The notes below the pieces were generated by a model. It worked only from the letters and a program-made list of their open reading frames with translations, was not told the origin of the DNA and searched no databases. From Pontixanthobacter rizhaonensis (lineage in GTDB: Bacteria; Pseudomonadota; Alphaproteobacteria; Sphingomonadales; Sphingomonadaceae), in NCBI RefSeq assembly GCF_012972675.1, contig NZ_JABCRE010000003.1:372001-436000 (forward strand): DNA of 64,000 nucleotides, given 5' to 3'. Each line of letters opens with the position of its first letter. The first letter of the stretch is position 1. Positions 39,510 through 48,157 of this stretch are shown in pieces. Both the position numbers and the translations under genes were made by a program.

Positions 39510-40646
39510 GTGCTCTGGATCGCCATCCGAATGCTCACCGGCGACAAGCAAAAGTTCTATGGCTTGCTGTTTGGCATTGCCTTCTCAACCTTGCTTATCA
39601 CCCAGCAGCTGACGATTTTCGTCAATCTGGTCGAACGCGGGGCGAGCGGCGTGTATAACGTCACAGAGGCCGATGTGTGGGTGATGGACGAAGTCAGCCG
39701 GACCACCGAGGTCAACTTTGCCATGCCCTCAACCGCGCTGGACAAAGTGCGCGGCGTAACCGGAGTTGACTGGGCGGTGCCGCATTTACGCGCGGTTGCA
39801 TCGGTGCGCACGAAAGATGGCGATCTTGAAGGCGTCGAGATTATCGGCGTGGATGATGCCACTTTGATCGGCCTGCCGCCCAGTATGATTGAAGGCAGCA
39901 AGTCGGTTCTGTTTCAACCCGACAGCGTCATTATTGATGATGTCGGCACCACGCGTATGTTTGAAGGCGGCATCAGCCCGGTGGGCGAGCGGCTCGAACT
40001 GAACGATCAGCGCGCGGTGATACGCGGCGTCGCGGATACGATACCGAGCTTCACCAGCCAGGTCGCTCTCTATACCAAATATAGTCAGGCGCTGCGTTAT
40101 GTCCCGGGATCACGCAACCGGTTGAGTTTCGTGCTGGTCGGCACATCGGACGGGGTTTCGAGCGAAGAACTGGCCGCGCGCATATCGGAAAAGACCGGCC
40201 TCAAGGCTCTCCCGCGTGAAAAGCTTGCCCAGAACGGCATCGATTTCATTATGGAAAATACCGGAATTCCGCTGAATTTCGGGATAACGGTTATTCTCGG
40301 CTTCATTGTCGGGGTGGCGATTGTCGGGCTGACATTCAGCCTGTTCATCCGCGACAACATCAAACAGTTCGGCGCTCTCAAAGCGATTGGCGTCACCAAC
40401 CGCAAAATTGCCGGAATGGTTGCCGCACAGGCATTTATGGTCGGAATGATCGGCTATGGTTTGGGTGTGCTGGGCACGGTCGCATTCATCTACTCCTTCT
40501 CCGGCGATCCGACGTTCAAAGGGTTCTATATCCCGTGGCAAGTGCCTCTGATTTCGCTGGTCGCCATGGTGCTGATCATTGTGCTGACCGGATGGATTGC
40601 CCTGCGCGGAGTGATGAAAACAGAACCGGCGGCGGTGTTCAGATGA
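39510..40646 (+). CDS. DevC/MacB-type ABC transporter permease
   Basis: The 378-residue protein has one N-terminal helix (residues 18-40), a large periplasmic domain (about 45-255) and three C-terminal helices, the FtsX/MacB_PCD-type fold. It starts at GTG with GAGAGG upstream. MLWIAIRMLTGDKQKFYGLLFGIAFS is close to DevC-like permeases that work with HlyD-type and TolC-type partners. First gene of a four-gene exporter operon; its stop overlaps the ATPase start (ATGA). Confidence 0.88.
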   Translation: MLWIAIRMLTGDKQKFYGLLFGIAFSTLLITQQLTIFVNLVERGASGVYNVTEADVWVMDEVSRTTEVNFAMPSTALDKVRGVTGVDWAVPHLRAVASVRTKDGDLEGVEIIGVDDATLIGLPPSMIEGSKSVLFQPDSVIIDDVGTTRMFEGGISPVGERLELNDQRAVIRGVADTIPSFTSQVALYTKYSQALRYVPGSRNRLSFVLVGTSDGVSSEELAARISEKTGLKALPREKLAQNGIDFIMENTGIPLNFGITVILGFIVGVAIVGLTFSLFIRDNIKQFGALKAIGVTNRKIAGMVAAQAFMVGMIGYGLGVLGTVAFIYSFSGDPTFKGFYIPWQVPLISLVAMVLIIVLTGWIALRGVMKTEPAAVFR

Positions 40647-41365
40647 GCGTTTCCGATACCAAGCCCCAACCCGCCATCCGCACCCGCGGTGTCACGCGCG
40701 ATTTCAAAGCCGGACAGCAGACCATCCGCGTCCTGCACGGCATTGATCTGGACGTCTGCCCGGGAGAGCTGACCTATCTGGTGGGCGAATCCGGATCGGG
40801 CAAAACCACCATGATTTCGATCATGTGCGGGATTTTGTGGCCGACCGACGGCGATGTGGAAGTTTTCGGCACCGATATCTATGCGCTGTCGGACAATGAG
40901 CTGGTCAATTTCCGGCTGCAAAATATCGGCTTTATTTTCCAGCAATATAATCTGATCCCCTCGATTGATGCGGCCTCGAACGCCGCCGTGCCCTTGATCG
41001 CCCAAGGCATGAACCGGCTCGAAGCGCGCGAGCGCGCCGTGGCGATGCTGGAGAAGCTCAATATTGGCGATCAGGCGGCCAAGCTGCCCAACCAGCTATC
41101 GGGCGGACAGCAGCAGCGGGTCGCAATTGCCCGCGCTCTGGTTCACGAACCAAGACTGGTCGTCTGCGATGAACCGACCGCTGCCCTCGATGCAAAATCG
41201 GGCCGCAAAGTGATGGATCTGCTGCGCGAAGTGGGCGTGGCGGAGGACCGCTCGGTCATTATCGTCACCCATGATAACCGCATTTTCGATCTCGCCGACC
41301 GTATCCTCGTTCTGGAAGACGGACGCATCACCCATGACGGCACCGACATGCCGGACGACCATTAA
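40643..41365 (+). CDS. ABC transporter ATP-binding protein (DevA/LolD-like)
   Basis: The 240-residue nucleotide-binding protein has Walker A GESGSGKTT, a Q-loop in FIFQQYN, the signature LSGGQQQRVAIARAL, Walker B LVVCDEPTAALD and the H-loop IIVTHD. It energises the permease encoded just upstream. ATG 40643 overlaps the permease stop. The 31-base gap to the HlyD-type gene suggests one transcript. Confidence 0.92.
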   Translation: MSVSDTKPQPAIRTRGVTRDFKAGQQTIRVLHGIDLDVCPGELTYLVGESGSGKTTMISIMCGILWPTDGDVEVFGTDIYALSDNELVNFRLQNIGFIFQQYNLIPSIDAASNAAVPLIAQGMNRLEARERAVAMLEKLNIGDQAAKLPNQLSGGQQQRVAIARALVHEPRLVVCDEPTAALDAKSGRKVMDLLREVGVAEDRSVIIVTHDNRIFDLADRILVLEDGRITHDGTDMPDDH

Positions 41366-41396
41366 CCCCGCCCGATAAAGCCCAAGGAACCAACCG

Positions 41397-42449
41397 ATGG
41401 CATTGCTCCCTGAAAATTTCAGCTTCTCGCGCAAAGTGCTACCCGTCATTGCGGTGATTGGCCTCATTATCGCCGCCATCTTTATCTGGAATGGCTTGCC
41501 CGACCGTGAATTGTCGGACCCCGATCAGGAGCCGCCGCGCGCCAGCGGTCAACTCGCAGATTCCGCGCGCGTTGCCGGAGCCGGTCTGGTGGAGCCGTCC
41601 AGCGAACTGGTCGATATCGGCACCGCACTGCCGGGCATCATTACCGACCTGCGTGTGCAGGCCGGTGACTTCGTGGAAAAAGGCCAAGTGCTGTTTACGG
41701 TCGATGACCGCGCGATCCGGTCCAGTCTGAACGAAAGCAACGCCGCCATCGCCGAAGCGCGCGCCTCGATCAATGAAGCGCAAACCGCGCGCCGCACAGC
41801 GCAGCAGCAATTGGCTTTGTACCGCCAGGTTGAAGATGCCGCCGCTGTCTCGCGATCCGAAGTCATCCGCGCCGAGGGCGAAGCGAGCGCCGCGAATAGC
41901 CGCCTGCAGCTCGCCCGTTCGCGCCTCAATGCGGCGGAAGCCCGCGCGGGAAGCGCACGGACAGAGCTGGGCCGTTTGACCGTTCGCGCACCAATGGCGG
42001 GGGAAATTCTCGCCGTGAATATCCGTCCGGGCGAATTTGTTTCCACGCAGGGCGGCGGGAATAGTGCGCCCTTTATCCGCATGGGTGAAACGCGCCCGCT
42101 CTATATCCGGATCGATATTGACGAGGCGGATATCAACCGCGTCAGCATGGGCGCGCCCGCCACCGTCTCCCCGCGCGGCGCGGCAGGTGAGCAAGTGCAA
42201 GCCAGCTTTGTCCGGGCGGAACCGCTGGTTGTGCCCAAAACATCGCTGACAAATTCAGCCGCCGAGCGGGTCGATGTGCGGGTGCTGCAAGTGCTCTATC
42301 AATTGCCCGAGACAGACGGGCTTTTCCGTGTCGGGCAGCAAGTCGATGCGTTTATTCCGGCCAAGGGAGACAAGACTGCTGAAGACGGGCCCGCTGAAAA
42401 AACCGCCGAAAGCGGTGACAAGGGCGCAGAACAGGGCGACGGCGAATGA
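41397..42449 (+). CDS. HlyD-family periplasmic adaptor of ABC exporter
   Basis: The 350-residue protein has an N-terminal membrane anchor (residues 15-33), a lipoyl half-motif, and a long alpha-helical hairpin (about residues 105-190, IRSSLNESNAAIAEARASINEAQTARR and on). The second lipoyl half RLTVRAPMAGEILAVNIRPGEFV and a beta-barrel domain follow. The C-terminus is an acidic, low-complexity tail (AEDGPAEKTAESGDKGAEQGDGE-like). It joins the inner-membrane ABC pair to the outer-membrane channel. The stop overlaps the start of the channel gene (ATGA). Confidence 0.9.
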   Translation: MALLPENFSFSRKVLPVIAVIGLIIAAIFIWNGLPDRELSDPDQEPPRASGQLADSARVAGAGLVEPSSELVDIGTALPGIITDLRVQAGDFVEKGQVLFTVDDRAIRSSLNESNAAIAEARASINEAQTARRTAQQQLALYRQVEDAAAVSRSEVIRAEGEASAANSRLQLARSRLNAAEARAGSARTELGRLTVRAPMAGEILAVNIRPGEFVSTQGGGNSAPFIRMGETRPLYIRIDIDEADINRVSMGAPATVSPRGAAGEQVQASFVRAEPLVVPKTSLTNSAAERVDVRVLQVLYQLPETDGLFRVGQQVDAFIPAKGDKTAEDGPAEKTAESGDKGAEQGDGE

Positions 42450-43867
42450 GACGCGCGCATCTATTGCTAACCGCTGCGGCTAGTCTGGCTGTGAGCGCCT
42501 GTGTCGCGGGACCGGCCCCCGAGATCGCGACACCGCCGCCCGAACTGCCGCAAAGTTTTGCCTTCAGCGCCGCCGCCAGCGACACGGCCACAGTCGCAGC
42601 ATTGCTGCCGGTGTCCGATCCGGCCTTCACAGCCTTGGCGCAGGCAGCCTTGGACAACGGGCCGAGCATTCTGGAAGCCGCCGCACGGGTCGATAGCGCG
42701 AGAGCGCGCGCCTCGGGTGCAGGCGCAAACCGGATGCCATCGGTGAGCGGCAGCGTATCGGCCACTGGCACGCGGACCAATGCCGCGCAATTTGGCGACA
42801 ATCTGCCCGGCGGATTTTCCATCGATACCGAGCAATTATCCTATGGCGGAACATTGTCCGCCGCGTGGGATCCCGATCTGTTTGGCCGCTTGCGCGCGCA
42901 GGAACGATCTGCCCTCAGCCTGACCGAAGCCGCCGGAGCCGACGCCGCCGCCGTGCGTATTTCGATCCTTGCGGAAATTGCCGGGGCGGTGATTGACTGG
43001 CGTACTTTGTCAGCGCGCGAGGATGCTCTGGGCGAGGATCTGGTTGCAGCCGAATCGCTCGTCGCTCTGGCCGATATTCGCGAGCGCGCCGGAATTGCGC
43101 CCGGCTTTGACCGGGTCCGCGCAGAAACCGCTGCCGAGCAAAGCCGAAGCCGGATCAGCGCATTGGATAGCCAGCGGGCGCAGATTATCGGGCGATTGGT
43201 GGCATTAACCGCGCAATCCGGCCAGCAAGTCCGCGATGCGTTGAGACTGCTTGCCCCCGGCGCGAGTACACCCGCAGCACCCGCAAGCGCACCATCTGCA
43301 TTGCTCACCAGCCGTCCCGATGTGCAGGCAGCCGCCGCACGGCTCGCCGCGAGTGACGCGGATCTCTACGCCGCTGCTGCAAACCGTTTCCCGCAATTGA
43401 CGCTATCGGCGGCGCTTGGTCTGCTGACTTTCGACACCAGCACTCTGCTTGATGATGATGCGATAGCCGGTTCGGCGGGCGGATCGCTGCTTGCGCCATT
43501 GTTTGATTTTGGCCGGATACAGGCGCAAATCGACAGCGCGGCGGCGGATAAACAGGCCGCCTTCCAAGCCTATCGCGGCGCGGTATTTGGCGCGCTGGGC
43601 GATGCCGAAGCGGCATATGGCCTGGTCGCGGCAGCGGACCGGGAGCTGCAAGCCGCGATGCGCGAGGAAGCCAGCGCGACCCGCGCCGCAGAACTTGCCG
43701 ATGTGCGTTTTCGCGCCGGTCTGGCCAATTTCCTCACCGTACTCGATGCGCGCCGCGTGGCCGATAGTTCGGGCGAACGGGCCGCTGCCGCACGCGGCCG
43801 GGCAGAGCGGGCGCGGGTTCTGTTATGGCAGGCATTGGGCGGCAATGAAGGACGTATCGCGCGCTAA
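42446..43867 (+). CDS. TolC/NodT-family outer-membrane efflux lipoprotein
   Basis: The 473-residue protein has a lipobox ending VSAC at residue 19. Two homologous repeats, each with long coiled helices and beta strands, follow, as expected for trimeric outer-membrane channels: FTALAQAALDNGPSILEAAARVDSARARASG in the first, LLTSRPDVQAAAARLAASDADLYAAAANRFPQL in the second. It completes a tripartite exporter with the permease, ATPase and adaptor. The exported substrate is unknown. Its stop overlaps that of the convergent HupE-like gene by 4 bases. Confidence 0.92.
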   Translation: MRRAHLLLTAAASLAVSACVAGPAPEIATPPPELPQSFAFSAAASDTATVAALLPVSDPAFTALAQAALDNGPSILEAAARVDSARARASGAGANRMPSVSGSVSATGTRTNAAQFGDNLPGGFSIDTEQLSYGGTLSAAWDPDLFGRLRAQERSALSLTEAAGADAAAVRISILAEIAGAVIDWRTLSAREDALGEDLVAAESLVALADIRERAGIAPGFDRVRAETAAEQSRSRISALDSQRAQIIGRLVALTAQSGQQVRDALRLLAPGASTPAAPASAPSALLTSRPDVQAAAARLAASDADLYAAAANRFPQLTLSAALGLLTFDTSTLLDDDAIAGSAGGSLLAPLFDFGRIQAQIDSAAADKQAAFQAYRGAVFGALGDAEAAYGLVAAADRELQAAMREEASATRAAELADVRFRAGLANFLTVLDARRVADSSGERAAAARGRAERARVLLWQALGGNEGRIAR

Positions 43868-44871
43868 ATCGCCACCCGGTCGATCAGCCAATAGGCGCCG
43901 GTAATGCCGATGCCGTAAGATGCAATCCGGACCGCTGGTTCCATCGCGGCGCTGGCGGCTTTGCGAATAAGGGCGAGCAGCGCCAGCACCGCCGCAACCA
44001 CTAGCAATTGGCCCGCCTCAACCCCCACATTAAACGCCAGCAATGCGGCGACAATATCTCCCTCCGGCAAGCCAATTGATGTCAGCGCACCGGCAAAGCC
44101 GAAGCCGTGCAGCAGGCCAAACAGAAACGCCACAATCCACGGGAAGCGCCGCGTCCATGTGCGGGGTGTGCGGATATCAAGATGCGTGTCGGCGGCTTCG
44201 TCTGCGCCGCGCAAAATTTCCACTGCAAGGAACACAATCGACAGCGCGATCAACGCCTCCACCGGCCCGCCGGGCAGACCGACAAAGCCTAGCGCAGCCG
44301 CCGCCAGCGTGATGGAGTGCGCGAGGGTAAAGGCAGTCGCAGCCGCCACAACCATTCGCCAGCTCTGCACCAGCAAGACCAATGCGATCACAAACAGCAA
44401 GTGATCCCAGCCCGCCAAAATATGCTCGACCCCCAATATGAAATAGGTTTTGAGCACCTGCGCAGTGTCGGGCTGCACTGCGATCACTGCCTCAGGATTG
44501 GCCGCCGTCAGCCGCAATGCCTGCGCCGGTTCTTCCAGCGGTTGGATCCGGACCAGCATATCTGCTTGGCCGGTTAAGCCGGGCATGGAAAATGCTTTAC
44601 CGGCAATAGACCCTTCGCACCCGGCAGTCGCTGACCCGATGATCGCAGCTGCTGCGGTACCGACCTTTGCCTCGCCCGAATATTCGCAATTATCCGGTAG
44701 AATGGGCGGAGAAGGCGCGTCGGTAGGCGGGGTGGTATAAGGCAATTTCCAACCGATCGACCATATGCCGGATTGGGTTTCGGTCAGTTCAAGATAGCCG
44801 GGCCTCAGCTCATCAGCTTGGGCTGGCACCGAACACATCATCGCCAACAGAAAGGCGGCAATCCATCTCAC
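43864..44871 (-). CDS. HupE/UreJ-family membrane protein with periplasmic domain
   Basis: The 335-residue protein has a signal peptide (RWIAAFLLAMMCSVPAQA), an extracytoplasmic domain of about 130 residues with two cysteines (residues 57 and 84 approx.), and a HupE/UreJ-like six-helix domain. The latter carries GVEHILAGWDHLLFV, TLAHSITL and FGLLHGFGFAGAL, whose histidines are typical of this metal-permease-like family. Nickel/cobalt transport is the usual annotation for relatives but is unproven. Last gene of the DUF3604-PPIase-HupE unit; its start overlaps the PPIase stop. Confidence 0.83.
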   Translation of the reverse strand: MRWIAAFLLAMMCSVPAQADELRPGYLELTETQSGIWSIGWKLPYTTPPTDAPSPPILPDNCEYSGEAKVGTAAAAIIGSATAGCEGSIAGKAFSMPGLTGQADMLVRIQPLEEPAQALRLTAANPEAVIAVQPDTAQVLKTYFILGVEHILAGWDHLLFVIALVLLVQSWRMVVAAATAFTLAHSITLAAAALGFVGLPGGPVEALIALSIVFLAVEILRGADEAADTHLDIRTPRTWTRRFPWIVAFLFGLLHGFGFAGALTSIGLPEGDIVAALLAFNVGVEAGQLLVVAAVLALLALIRKAASAAMEPAVRIASYGIGITGAYWLIDRVAI

Positions 44872-45677
44872 TTTTGGATATCCACCTGATAGGCATCGCG
44901 CAGCAATTGATAGGCATCATCGCGCCGCTGGGCCAGAGTTTCATTGCGCCAGTCACTTTCCACCCGGCCCCGAATATCGACCAAAGGGGGCACGCGGCCC
45001 GCAGTCCGGGCGCGCAGCCGGATAAGATGCCAGCCGAACCCTGATGGCACCGGCCCGGTCCAATCCGGTGATGGCTTACCGCCGTTCAAGCCCTCCAGAA
45101 ACGCAATGCCAAACTGCCTTTCGATGGCCCCGGCCGTGCCAGCATCCATCGTCCCCGGCAGAGAAATGGTGTCGCCCATATCCGCCCCGTTCTGGCCGCC
45201 TGACAGGCTTTCCAAAGCTGCAATGGCAGTATCCTTGTCAGCGAAATACAGCTGATCAAAGCTGTAGGTAGTATCGTCTGCAAAGCGGTGCGGATTGTCC
45301 GCCAGCCATGCTTCCAATGTGCGATCGGAAGGCTGGGCGGTTTCCGCGATACTGGTCGCCAAATAGTCCATCTTATTGGCGAGCCGTTTGCGGACCACTG
45401 CATCATCGCGGTCTAAACCCAGCCGCAACGCCTCGCGGTACAGCACCTCTTCCCGCAGCCAGGTTTCGGTCAGGCTGTCCAGCTCTGCATCGGTGGGCGG
45501 GCGTTGCATCATCTGTTCCCACTGCAAAGACAGTCGCGCGCGATCTTCCTGCGTGATGGTGATATCGCGGCTGGCCGGATCAGCGGGTTCGCCTTTCCAG
45601 ACAAAGAACGCAAAAACCGCAGCACCGGCGACCAAAAAATGCACCAATGGCTCACGGGCCCAGTTGGGTAACGTCAT
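44868..45677 (-). CDS. Membrane-anchored parvulin-like peptidyl-prolyl isomerase
   Basis: The 269-residue protein has a single N-terminal helix (REPLVHFLVAGAAVFAFFVW) followed by a SurA/PrsA-like chaperone helix region (LTETWLREEVLYREALRLGLDRDDAVVRKRLANKMDYL). A divergent PpiC-type parvulin domain then ends GPVPSGFGWHLIRLRARTAGRVPPL. It is likely to fold exported proteins at the outer face of the inner membrane. It lies between DUF3604 and the HupE-like gene, with a 30-base gap and a 4-base overlap. Confidence 0.82.
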   Translation of the reverse strand: MTLPNWAREPLVHFLVAGAAVFAFFVWKGEPADPASRDITITQEDRARLSLQWEQMMQRPPTDAELDSLTETWLREEVLYREALRLGLDRDDAVVRKRLANKMDYLATSIAETAQPSDRTLEAWLADNPHRFADDTTYSFDQLYFADKDTAIAALESLSGGQNGADMGDTISLPGTMDAGTAGAIERQFGIAFLEGLNGGKPSPDWTGPVPSGFGWHLIRLRARTAGRVPPLVDIRGRVESDWRNETLAQRRDDAYQLLRDAYQVDIQK

Positions 45678-45707
45678 GATATTTTTGCCCCGATATCAGG
45701 CCGTGAT

Positions 45708-47639
45708 CTAGCTTTCTTGCGTTGCATCGGTTGCTGGCGGCCCGACCCATATGGGTGATGTGTACGCCCGTTCCTGAGACACAGAATCGGCCAGCGCCTC
45801 CGCGCTCAATTCAAAACCGAACCGGACCGCGTCAAACAGGGTCCAGCGCGGAGTCGGGATTTCCAGCACGCGGACATAATAAAACGCATTCTGCCCTTCG
45901 CTATATTCCGGATCGGCCCAGACTGTCTGCAATTCAGGGGCCCCGATATCATTGGTATAGGTCGCTGCCGCGCGATCTACTGTATCGCCAACGCCGGGCA
46001 CTTTGCCGCCCACGGGCCGGCGGGAATCCATGTCGGACCAGACAACATCGAACACTTTCTCGCGCAGCGCGCCATCGGCTGTGATCCAGCCTTTGACAAT
46101 TTGAACGCGGTCCAGATGGGCACCGTCGGGGTCTTTCAAGGCTGATACAATGAATTGCGGAGCGCTGCCATTATCAGACAATTCCCCGCCCATTGGCACG
46201 CCTTTAGTATAGGCGTTTTCCACCCAATCAGCAGTGAAATCATTGTCGGAAAAATCATATCCGCCAAAGAAACGCACCACCATGCGCGGGCCGGTGGTGG
46301 CGTACACTTCCCGCCGCATCATGGCATCGAAAATTTCGGCTCTGGTGTTTCCCTTGGCCCAAACCGCCGCATAACCGCTGGCGAGATAATGCCAGCCAAA
46401 ACGGCCCACCCGGGTTCCCAAATTTTGCGGCGCATTGGCCCGCTCACCATTGGGTTCATTGCCGGTATGCTTGCCGAAGAAATTATCCTCGTCAGCCGTG
46501 GCCAGACTGGTGTGGCTGTCGGTCGAGCCGATCATCCCGAATTTATACGGGTTCACACCGGTTTGCTGTTCAATCGACAGTCCGCGCTTCAACGCTTCAC
46601 GCAGATATTCACCAGCCAGTTGAGAATCTTCTTTGGCTTCGGTCAAAGACAGATTGCCAATCTCCCACCCGACATCGCCAAAGTTCGCGAATTCATCATT
46701 GGGTGAAAGAAACGGATGCGATTCGCTGTCGCCCTTGATCTGTGTTGCCTCAACCACCGGCTCTCTTTGCGCACGTTTGCGCGCATATTCCGCCGTCATC
46801 GGGCCACCATCAGGGGTAGTCAGCTCAAACATCAAGCCATTGGACAGGTTGGAATTATGCGGGATTGCCAGCACCCGGCCGCCGGTTGCCTCTTCATAAG
46901 CGTCCATATAATCGAACAAGCCATCAACCTGCCCGTCCAGCCCGGGGAAAGGCAATGTTTTGGATGTCTTGTCATAGCCATCCCGGTACATCACCACGCG
47001 GTGCAAATTGTTCCCGCCCGGCATCAATGTCCATTCATAGCCTGCAATCGGCGTGAAAGTGCCGGGATCATAAAACTTGTCGAGTGTGGCCAGATGCTTG
47101 GTCCAGATAGTCCGCGTCGCCTTTTCCTGATTTTCAGGATCGCGCAGCGCCTCTGGCAAGGTGCCATTGGAGGCAGCAGTAATCAGTTCGCCAATCGCCC
47201 GTTGCGATTGTTCTGGCGATTCGTGCATCATGTCGTGCCACTTGAGCAGGGTCGGATCCTGAATGGCGATACGCGGTGCATCATATAACCGGCGCGTTGC
47301 ACCAAGCCCGTCGCTGTGATCGGCAATCACCAAGAAATCGAGCGGCCGCGCAATCTGGGCCTCCATACCGCTGGTCGCGGTTACTTTTTCGCCGCGCGCG
47401 AACCGCAAAGCCGCCTCAGGCCCAAGCCGGGTACCAAACCCGAATGCATCGATCGAATTGTCTGTGTGAAGATGGGTGTCACCCCATAAAACCTGCTGCG
47501 GATAGGGGGTCAGTTCAACGCTGGCTTCGGCATTGGCAACCTGACGCGCTGTCGCCTCTGGATTATCACGGCCAAACAACCACCAGCCTGCCCCAGCAAT
47601 CAGTACAATGACTGCCGCGATTCCAAGATACTTCTTCAC
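45708..47639 (-). CDS. DUF3604 membrane-anchored PHP-type hydrolase
   Basis: The 643-residue protein has an N-terminal anchor (LGIAAVIVLIAGAGWWLF) and a large exported domain. PHP-phosphoesterase metal motifs are visible: GDTHLHTDNS (HxH, about 56-58), VIADHSDGLG, and GSTDSHTSL in the C-terminal half. DUF3604 proteins are predicted metal-dependent phosphoesterases but none is well characterised. GTG 47639 has GGAGGGGC just upstream; ATG-like starts further out lack this. First gene of the DUF3604-PPIase-HupE unit. Confidence 0.83.
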   Translation of the reverse strand: MKKYLGIAAVIVLIAGAGWWLFGRDNPEATARQVANAEASVELTPYPQQVLWGDTHLHTDNSIDAFGFGTRLGPEAALRFARGEKVTATSGMEAQIARPLDFLVIADHSDGLGATRRLYDAPRIAIQDPTLLKWHDMMHESPEQSQRAIGELITAASNGTLPEALRDPENQEKATRTIWTKHLATLDKFYDPGTFTPIAGYEWTLMPGGNNLHRVVMYRDGYDKTSKTLPFPGLDGQVDGLFDYMDAYEEATGGRVLAIPHNSNLSNGLMFELTTPDGGPMTAEYARKRAQREPVVEATQIKGDSESHPFLSPNDEFANFGDVGWEIGNLSLTEAKEDSQLAGEYLREALKRGLSIEQQTGVNPYKFGMIGSTDSHTSLATADEDNFFGKHTGNEPNGERANAPQNLGTRVGRFGWHYLASGYAAVWAKGNTRAEIFDAMMRREVYATTGPRMVVRFFGGYDFSDNDFTADWVENAYTKGVPMGGELSDNGSAPQFIVSALKDPDGAHLDRVQIVKGWITADGALREKVFDVVWSDMDSRRPVGGKVPGVGDTVDRAAATYTNDIGAPELQTVWADPEYSEGQNAFYYVRVLEIPTPRWTLFDAVRFGFELSAEALADSVSQERAYTSPIWVGPPATDATQES

Positions 47640-47704
47640 ATGCCCCTCCACGATCACGCTTATCGGTGATTCCAGCGCAAACAGTGCCAGAGTTTACGCT
47701 TAGG

Positions 47705-48157
47705 TCAAGGCTGGGACTTTTTGAGCAATGCGGAACGGCTGCACCGGACAACCACTTCGTTACGCTGATTAAGCAGTTCATGTTGGAACGTTACAATCCC
47801 CGCAGTGGGGCGTGACTTGGACTCTTTCAAAGCTGTCACTTCGCTGGTCGCTCGCAACGTATCGCCGATGAACACCGGCTTGGGCATCACCAAGGCATCA
47901 TAGCCCAGATTAGCGACCAATGTTCCCAAGGTCGTGTCGCCCACGGACAGGCCAACCATCAAGGAGAAAGTGAAAGTGCCATTGACCAAAATCTGGCCAA
48001 ATTCGGATTCCTTCGCCGCTTCTGCATCCAAATGCAGGGGCTGCGGATTGTGGGTCATGGTGGAGAATAACAGATTGTCTGTTTCCGTAACGGTGCGGCG
48101 AATTTCGTGATCAATCCGGTCGCCAATCGCCCACTCGTCAAAATACCGTCCGGCCAC
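47705..48157 (-). CDS. MaoC-family hot-dog dehydratase
   Basis: The 150-residue hot-dog-fold protein has the hydratase-2 segment [40 protein letters not shown], in which the His/Asn pair and the following loop form the enoyl-CoA hydratase-like active site. [19 protein letters not shown] follows in the second half. It likely hydrates a CoA thioester; the pathway is not evident. It sits alone, about 65 bases upstream of the DUF3604 gene on the same strand. Confidence 0.87.

Follow-up and report, generated by a model that had tools for sequence, protein, structure and literature searches.

Three genes, encoding a DUF3604 protein, a parvulin-type PPIase, and a HupE_UreJ_2 membrane protein, are inherited together in at least eight bacterial phyla, and this joint inheritance points to a dedicated system for activating an exported DUF3604 hydrolase outside the cytoplasm. 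Each of the three families is known, but our search of an open-access library found no account of the trio itself. DUF3604 has a Pfam entry and next to no literature, with one passing mention in 5.39 million open-access papers.

We analyzed the trio in a stretch of 64,000 nucleotides from Pontixanthobacter rizhaonensis (hereafter, the window), in which an earlier note had placed three leftward ORFs for DUF3604, the PPIase, and HupE_UreJ_2. The ORFs were found at those positions, with the 30-base gap between DUF3604 and the PPIase and the 4-base overlap between the PPIase and HupE that the earlier note had given. The features are as follows:
45708-47657, minus strand: DUF3604 gene, predicted exported PHP-type metallohydrolase with an N-terminal membrane anchor (PF12228 in Pfam, E 4e-239)
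46293-47504, minus strand: PHP domain of DUF3604, residues ~52-455, with nine putative metal ligands (invariant residues and fold match)
45738-46286, minus strand: C-terminal beta-sandwich domain of DUF3604, residues ~458-640 (AF2 model, weak Ig-like matches at Z ~4)
44868-45677, minus strand: trio-type PPIase, predicted membrane-anchored periplasmic parvulin-type foldase (PF13145 Rotamase_2, E 1e-11)
43864-44871, minus strand: HupE_UreJ_2 membrane protein of the trio-type clade (PF13795, E 9e-47)
44482-44814, minus strand: extracytoplasmic beta-sandwich domain of HupE, residues 20-130, ZrgA/PA4063/Ang-1-like (structure matches)
44401-44424, minus strand: HX5DH motif (H150, D156, H157) at the start of the HupE membrane core (invariant in two alignments)

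Counted from their first starts, the ORFs for DUF3604, the PPIase, and HupE_UreJ_2 encode 649, 269, and 335 aa, respectively; for DUF3604, the GTG at 47639, with GGAGG just upstream, is a more convincing start than the first one (47657). The source genome contains one DUF3604, one HupE_UreJ_2, and one trio-type PPIase, and no NCBIfam name was obtained above cut-off for any of the three proteins. Promoter and terminator scans at the locus revealed nothing beyond chance. On the same strand, 47 bases upstream of DUF3604, lies a MaoC-like dehydratase gene (window 47705-48157), whose closeness to DUF3604 is kept in close relatives only. On the other side, genes for a MacB-type ABC exporter and an OEP/TolC-like protein (window 39510-43867) run toward the trio, and the stop codons of the OEP/TolC-like gene and the HupE gene overlap by 4 bases.

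The DUF3604 protein matched PF12228 over profile positions 3-591 of 591 with 795.6 bits, above the curated cut-off. No sequence relatives were found in the PDB at E values up to 1, and Foldseek alone gave no significant match for its AF2 model (pLDDT 92.4), the top rows being low-quality beta-domain matches. In a VIA comparison of the model with solved structures, the top 11 matches were all PHP proteins or domains, with Z scores from 15.8 to 7.6 and the next unrelated row at 4.2. The best were the PHP phosphoesterases 3e38 (BVU_3505; Z 15.8) and 2anu (TM0559; 15.4), followed by PsfC (7rty; 12.5) and Endonuclease Q (12.4). The HLH, ADH, and DSH motifs that had first suggested a PHP-like hydrolase are present and form part of nine residues (H62, H64, D113, H114, E208, H219, H267, D380, and H382 in the 649-aa numbering) invariant in 42 relatives, so that the PHP ligand set HxH, DH, E, H, H, DxH is complete in the window protein. 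By analogy with PHP enzymes, we take these nine putative ligands to represent the pattern of a multi-metal PHP site. Together with the fold, which supports the PHP-like reading, DUF3604 models as a PHP-fold metallohydrolase with putative hydrolytic activity. It shares the fold (Z 12-16) and the residue set with the PHP phosphoesterases but differs from them in being predicted to be exported and anchored, in its ~590-residue architecture, and in having its own C-terminal beta-sandwich. The CehA/McbA carbaryl-hydrolase type metallohydrolases (NF038032) are PHP-like, as is DUF3604, and one locus (L080) bridges both profiles; however, the window DUF3604 had no match to NF038032, and the true DUF3604 relatives scored at most 17.9 bits, far below its cut-off of 80 bits. 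The membrane anchor proposed earlier for the hydrolase corresponds to a single N-terminal hydrophobic segment (residues 5-23). Among 165 DUF3604 proteins, simple rules identified a lipobox in 67 and a hydrophobic N-terminal segment in 67, so that export is the rule and most of these proteins come with an anchor or signal of their own.

The window PPIase scored 46.2 bits against PF13145 Rotamase_2 (cut-off 27), and its single N-terminal hydrophobic segment (residues 11-29) likewise agrees with the membrane anchor that had been claimed for it. Its relatives in the PDB are SurA/PrsA/Cbf2 chaperones, with which it shares a parvulin domain and N-terminal chaperone-like helices, whereas the membrane anchor, the His/Gln variation at the first parvulin His, and the dedicated genomic partner set it apart from them. 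Gln replaces the first parvulin His in the window protein and in 10 of the 18 aligned PPIases, which makes the isomerase activity uncertain, and the C-terminal G-x-H is invariant in the alignment.

In the Pseudomonadota, full-length DUF3604 was found in 24 of 398 genomes, and all 24 encode a trio-type PPIase, called at E < 1e-60 with a profile built from trio-type PPIases. This PPIase search covered 80 of the 398 genomes, all taken from the subset in which HupE_UreJ_2 or DUF3604 had matched. Among the other genomes tested, the trio-type PPIase occurred only in G529, in which the PPIase-HupE pair is intact and DUF3604 is absent, and in G354, in which it lies beside a DUF3604 fragment; the remainder gave either background parvulin matches weaker than 1e-21 or no match at all. 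Both exceptional genomes also contain other PHP-like matches, one of them above the family cut-off in G354. The resulting association of DUF3604 with the PPIase (Fisher p 1.6e-36) refers to a PPIase search in 80 selected genomes of the 398. In the order sample, DUF3604 matches were present in 67 of 198 genomes, and the PPIase was detected in all 58 of the further DUF3604 genomes (weakly in G002) versus none of the 21 genomes without DUF3604. In the Bacteroidota, three of 198 genomes contained DUF3604, and exactly those three contained the PPIase. A genome may encode several DUF3604 paralogues with a single PPIase-HupE pair (four paralogues in G147), an arrangement that is easier to reconcile with a shared maturation pair than with a complex of fixed ratio. 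We also considered whether the PPIase is linked generally to all HupE_UreJ_2 proteins, but this was rejected because 37 of the 40 HupE_UreJ_2 loci not beside DUF3604 lacked such a PPIase; the three that had one were all trio-type.

The earlier note had suggested that these families are neighbors in other genomes and had proposed a gene-neighborhood search. The suggestion proved right, and the link much broader than the clade: the families co-occurred strictly in three samples and in several phyla, and their adjacency is conserved well beyond the clade. In 26 of the 30 best order-sample loci, the PPIase adjoins DUF3604 and is followed by HupE. Of 80 DUF3604 loci from the GTDB collection, 47 contained the full trio within 10 kb, and three further loci showed the PPIase before the contig end. 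Hosts among isolates include Xanthomarina spongicola (Bacteroidota) and Microseira wollei (Cyanobacteria), and the trio was also found in MAGs assigned, with possible contamination, to the Myxococcota, Nitrospirota, Verrucomicrobiota, Campylobacterota, and Krumholzibacteriota. The order is permuted to PPIase-HupE-DUF3604 in L186, L191, L196, and L213-L215, and the set is kept in G059, G083, G133, G182, G183, and G449 even though the genes are unlinked. Where a genome had a lone DUF3604 locus, a PPIase match was found elsewhere in 19 of 24 cases, 15 of them strong. These distributions bear on the idea that the trio co-travels only as one transferred operon, without functional need. Transfer would account for the mixing of taxa in the HupE tree (e.g., Nitrospirales with Microvirga), but gene decay would be expected to separate partners that are not needed, and all parts are kept in the unlinked and permuted genomes, which makes this idea barely credible.

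No natural fusions between the three genes were found. An apparent DUF3604-HupE fusion at L079 (9037-10023) was rejected: it is a deletion scar in which one reading frame runs from the N-terminal part of DUF3604 straight into the C-terminal half of HupE, a relic of the DUF3604-PPIase-HupE order. DUF3604-PPIase pairs without HupE occur at L241 (1-2154) and L198 (2395-5186), in a diverged DUF3604 subgroup. Around the DUF3604 loci, no fourth broadly conserved gene was found; sulfatase, DUF1254/DUF1214, TonB receptor, and MaoC genes were each rejected as a fourth member because they are local or clade-limited neighbors. DUF1254/DUF1214 proteins are encoded directly upstream of DUF3604 in several loci (L072, 7709-9403; L076, 7454-9112; L178; L210), and TonB-dependent receptors lie near several loci. 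Sulfatases (PF00884) are encoded near 11 DUF3604 loci (L208, 13756-15378; L187, 11808-14126; L069, 11838-13454; L204, 7773-9710; and seven others), several of them directly adjacent and on the same strand. These neighbors hint at ester scavenging, which we regard as a lead only.

The sulfatases, together with the two genomes that keep the PPIase-HupE pair without an intact DUF3604 and contain other PHP-like matches, could mean that the pair serves a wider range of exported metalloenzymes (e.g., neighboring sulfatases or other PHP proteins), of which DUF3604 would be the commonest client. However, the pair is near-perfectly restricted to DUF3604 genomes, and no sulfatase was found beside any of the 40 non-trio HupE loci, so this broader role seems highly unlikely.

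The window HupE scored 159.1 bits against PF13795 HupE_UreJ_2 (cut-off 24.5). Its AF2 model (pLDDT 89) consists of a signal-like N-terminal helix, a beta domain (residues ~24-130), and a helical membrane core, in line with the multi-helix protein with an extracytoplasmic domain that had been described from the letters. The HX5DH motif, which reads HILAGWDH at residues 150-157, is shared by 85 of the 88 trio-type HupE sequences, and other His and Glu residues are likewise invariant, variants aside. We take HX5DH to be a mark of HupE-type metal permeases. In a membrane-core tree of the sampled HupE_UreJ_2 proteins, the trio-type HupE formed one clade with 100/99 support. Two rows labeled "other" fell inside it; they come from the short loci L033 and L042, and L058 and L066, which cover those two places at greater length, do show the PPIase.

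The best structure matches of the outer domain were 8f1b (ZrgA of Vibrio cholerae; Z 10.3) and 7bgo (PA4063 of Pseudomonas aeruginosa; Z 9.1), whereas its match to the copper-bound Ang-1 domain 9gce, over 106 residues, reached Z 7.5, below the caution level of 8. ZrgA and PA4063 are periplasmic zinc-binding proteins that share this fold (Z 9-10), and ZrgA is part of a zinc ABC import system (PMC9820375). They are soluble, whereas the outer domain of the trio HupE lacks a His-rich loop and belongs to the same polypeptide as a membrane core. In the anglerases (Nat Commun 2025), a metal-fishing domain (Ang-1 or Ang-2) is fused to a HupE/UreJ-2 permease, and His1 is fully conserved (PMC12537917). 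The main text of that paper mentions neither DUF3604 nor the PPIase. The trio HupE shares with the anglerases a signal peptide, an outer beta-sandwich, and the HupE_UreJ_2 core, but it forms its own clade among the sampled proteins and is paired with the PPIase and DUF3604. Across this clade, the position of the Ang-1 His1 is mostly His or Asp. The window protein reads ...VPAQA-DELRPGYLEL, with Asp rather than His at the mature N-terminus (the cleavage site was judged by eye), which indicates that the published copper site is absent as such and that the window HupE is not a standard Ang-1 protein.

Variants with a lost or degenerate permease core (L180, L182, L207, L230, L248, and L263-L265) are rare and occur in some Gemmatimonadota and in delta-type, Desulfobacterota-like genomes. 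The HupE-like proteins of L182 and L207 retain the outer domain but have, in place of the seven-helix core, a short membrane part and a C-terminal domain. L180, L230, L232, and their relatives have a degenerate core without HX5DH (visible in full in L180) and the same C-terminal domain. This domain of ~145 aa contains an invariant H-x2-H-x-H and is preceded by either a degenerate HupE core or an outer domain resembling ZrgA; it obtained no Pfam name when checked on L182 and L180. It was located at L182 (12734-13807), L207 (3000-4115), and L180 (4197-6587), and also in L230, L232, and L249-L257; some carriers have no DUF3604 nearby. The core-lost or degenerate variants adjoin the PPIase in several genomes, and DUF3604 as well in L180, L182, L207, L264, and L265. 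The permease core is thus less faithfully conserved than the outer domain and a His-rich element, and its loss or degeneration means that metal permeation is not needed everywhere.

Two roles had been guessed for HupE, namely supplying a metal or anchoring a complex. Metal supply gains support from an outer domain that resembles zinc- and copper-binding domains, but its permeation part is weakened by the rare variants. A rival reading is metal acquisition, in which HupE would be an anglerase-type importer moving outside metal into the cytoplasm, DUF3604 would hydrolyze an outside ligand or ester and thereby free the metal or a product, and the PPIase would fold either. The published HupE/UreJ-2 anglerase model is indeed one of metal capture and uptake (PMC12537917), and the retention of HX5DH and the TonB-dependent receptors and sulfatases near several loci are consistent with import. 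We nevertheless consider it unlikely, given that variants with a lost or degraded core retain the PPIase and several also DUF3604, that one HupE-PPIase pair can accompany up to four DUF3604 paralogues, and that the clade varies at His1 of the anglerase copper site. The anchoring role is weakened by the many DUF3604 proteins with their own lipobox or hydrophobic N-terminal segment. The possibility that HupE is mainly a membrane platform or regulator, binding DUF3604 and the PPIase via its outer domain, with metal transport incidental or lost, would explain the persistence of this domain in L182, L207, and L180, whose core is lost or degenerate. However, DUF3604 has its own anchors, and HX5DH and the other His and Glu residues are otherwise invariant, which makes a platform less probable again.

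A maturation set, comprising a foldase and a metal-handling membrane protein, is the most economical reading of these results and the most likely one, although its chemistry is what we infer. DUF3604 would be the working enzyme, an exported PHP-fold metallohydrolase anchored by membrane segment or lipid, perhaps one that hydrolyzes phospho-, sulfo-, or carboxyl esters to scavenge nutrients. The membrane-anchored parvulin-like PPIase may be its dedicated folding factor, and HupE_UreJ_2, via its outer domain of metal-binding type and its membrane core, may handle the metal that fills the periplasmic PHP site. That the trio is an obligate functional module maturing DUF3604 in this way, with folding by the PPIase and metal handling by HupE, seems to us evenly poised. 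Against it stand the loss or degeneration of the permease core in some genomes, the PPIase-HupE pair without DUF3604 in G529, and, in the window, the Asp at the mature N-terminus of HupE and the Gln at the first parvulin His. We rate at somewhat below even odds the fuller proposal of an undescribed, widely transferred assembly system in which the foldase and a ZrgA/anglerase-type HupE metal-load periplasmic DUF3604, with the HxxHxH protein as an alternative third component where the permease core is lost or degenerate.

Through its strict genetic ties to a foldase and a permease of metal-binding type, the activity of DUF3604 becomes open to direct testing. If the maturation reading is true, the trio would reveal how PHP enzymes outside the bacterial cytoplasm acquire their metal, and the HupE/UreJ-2 "anglerases" would gain a role beyond uptake.
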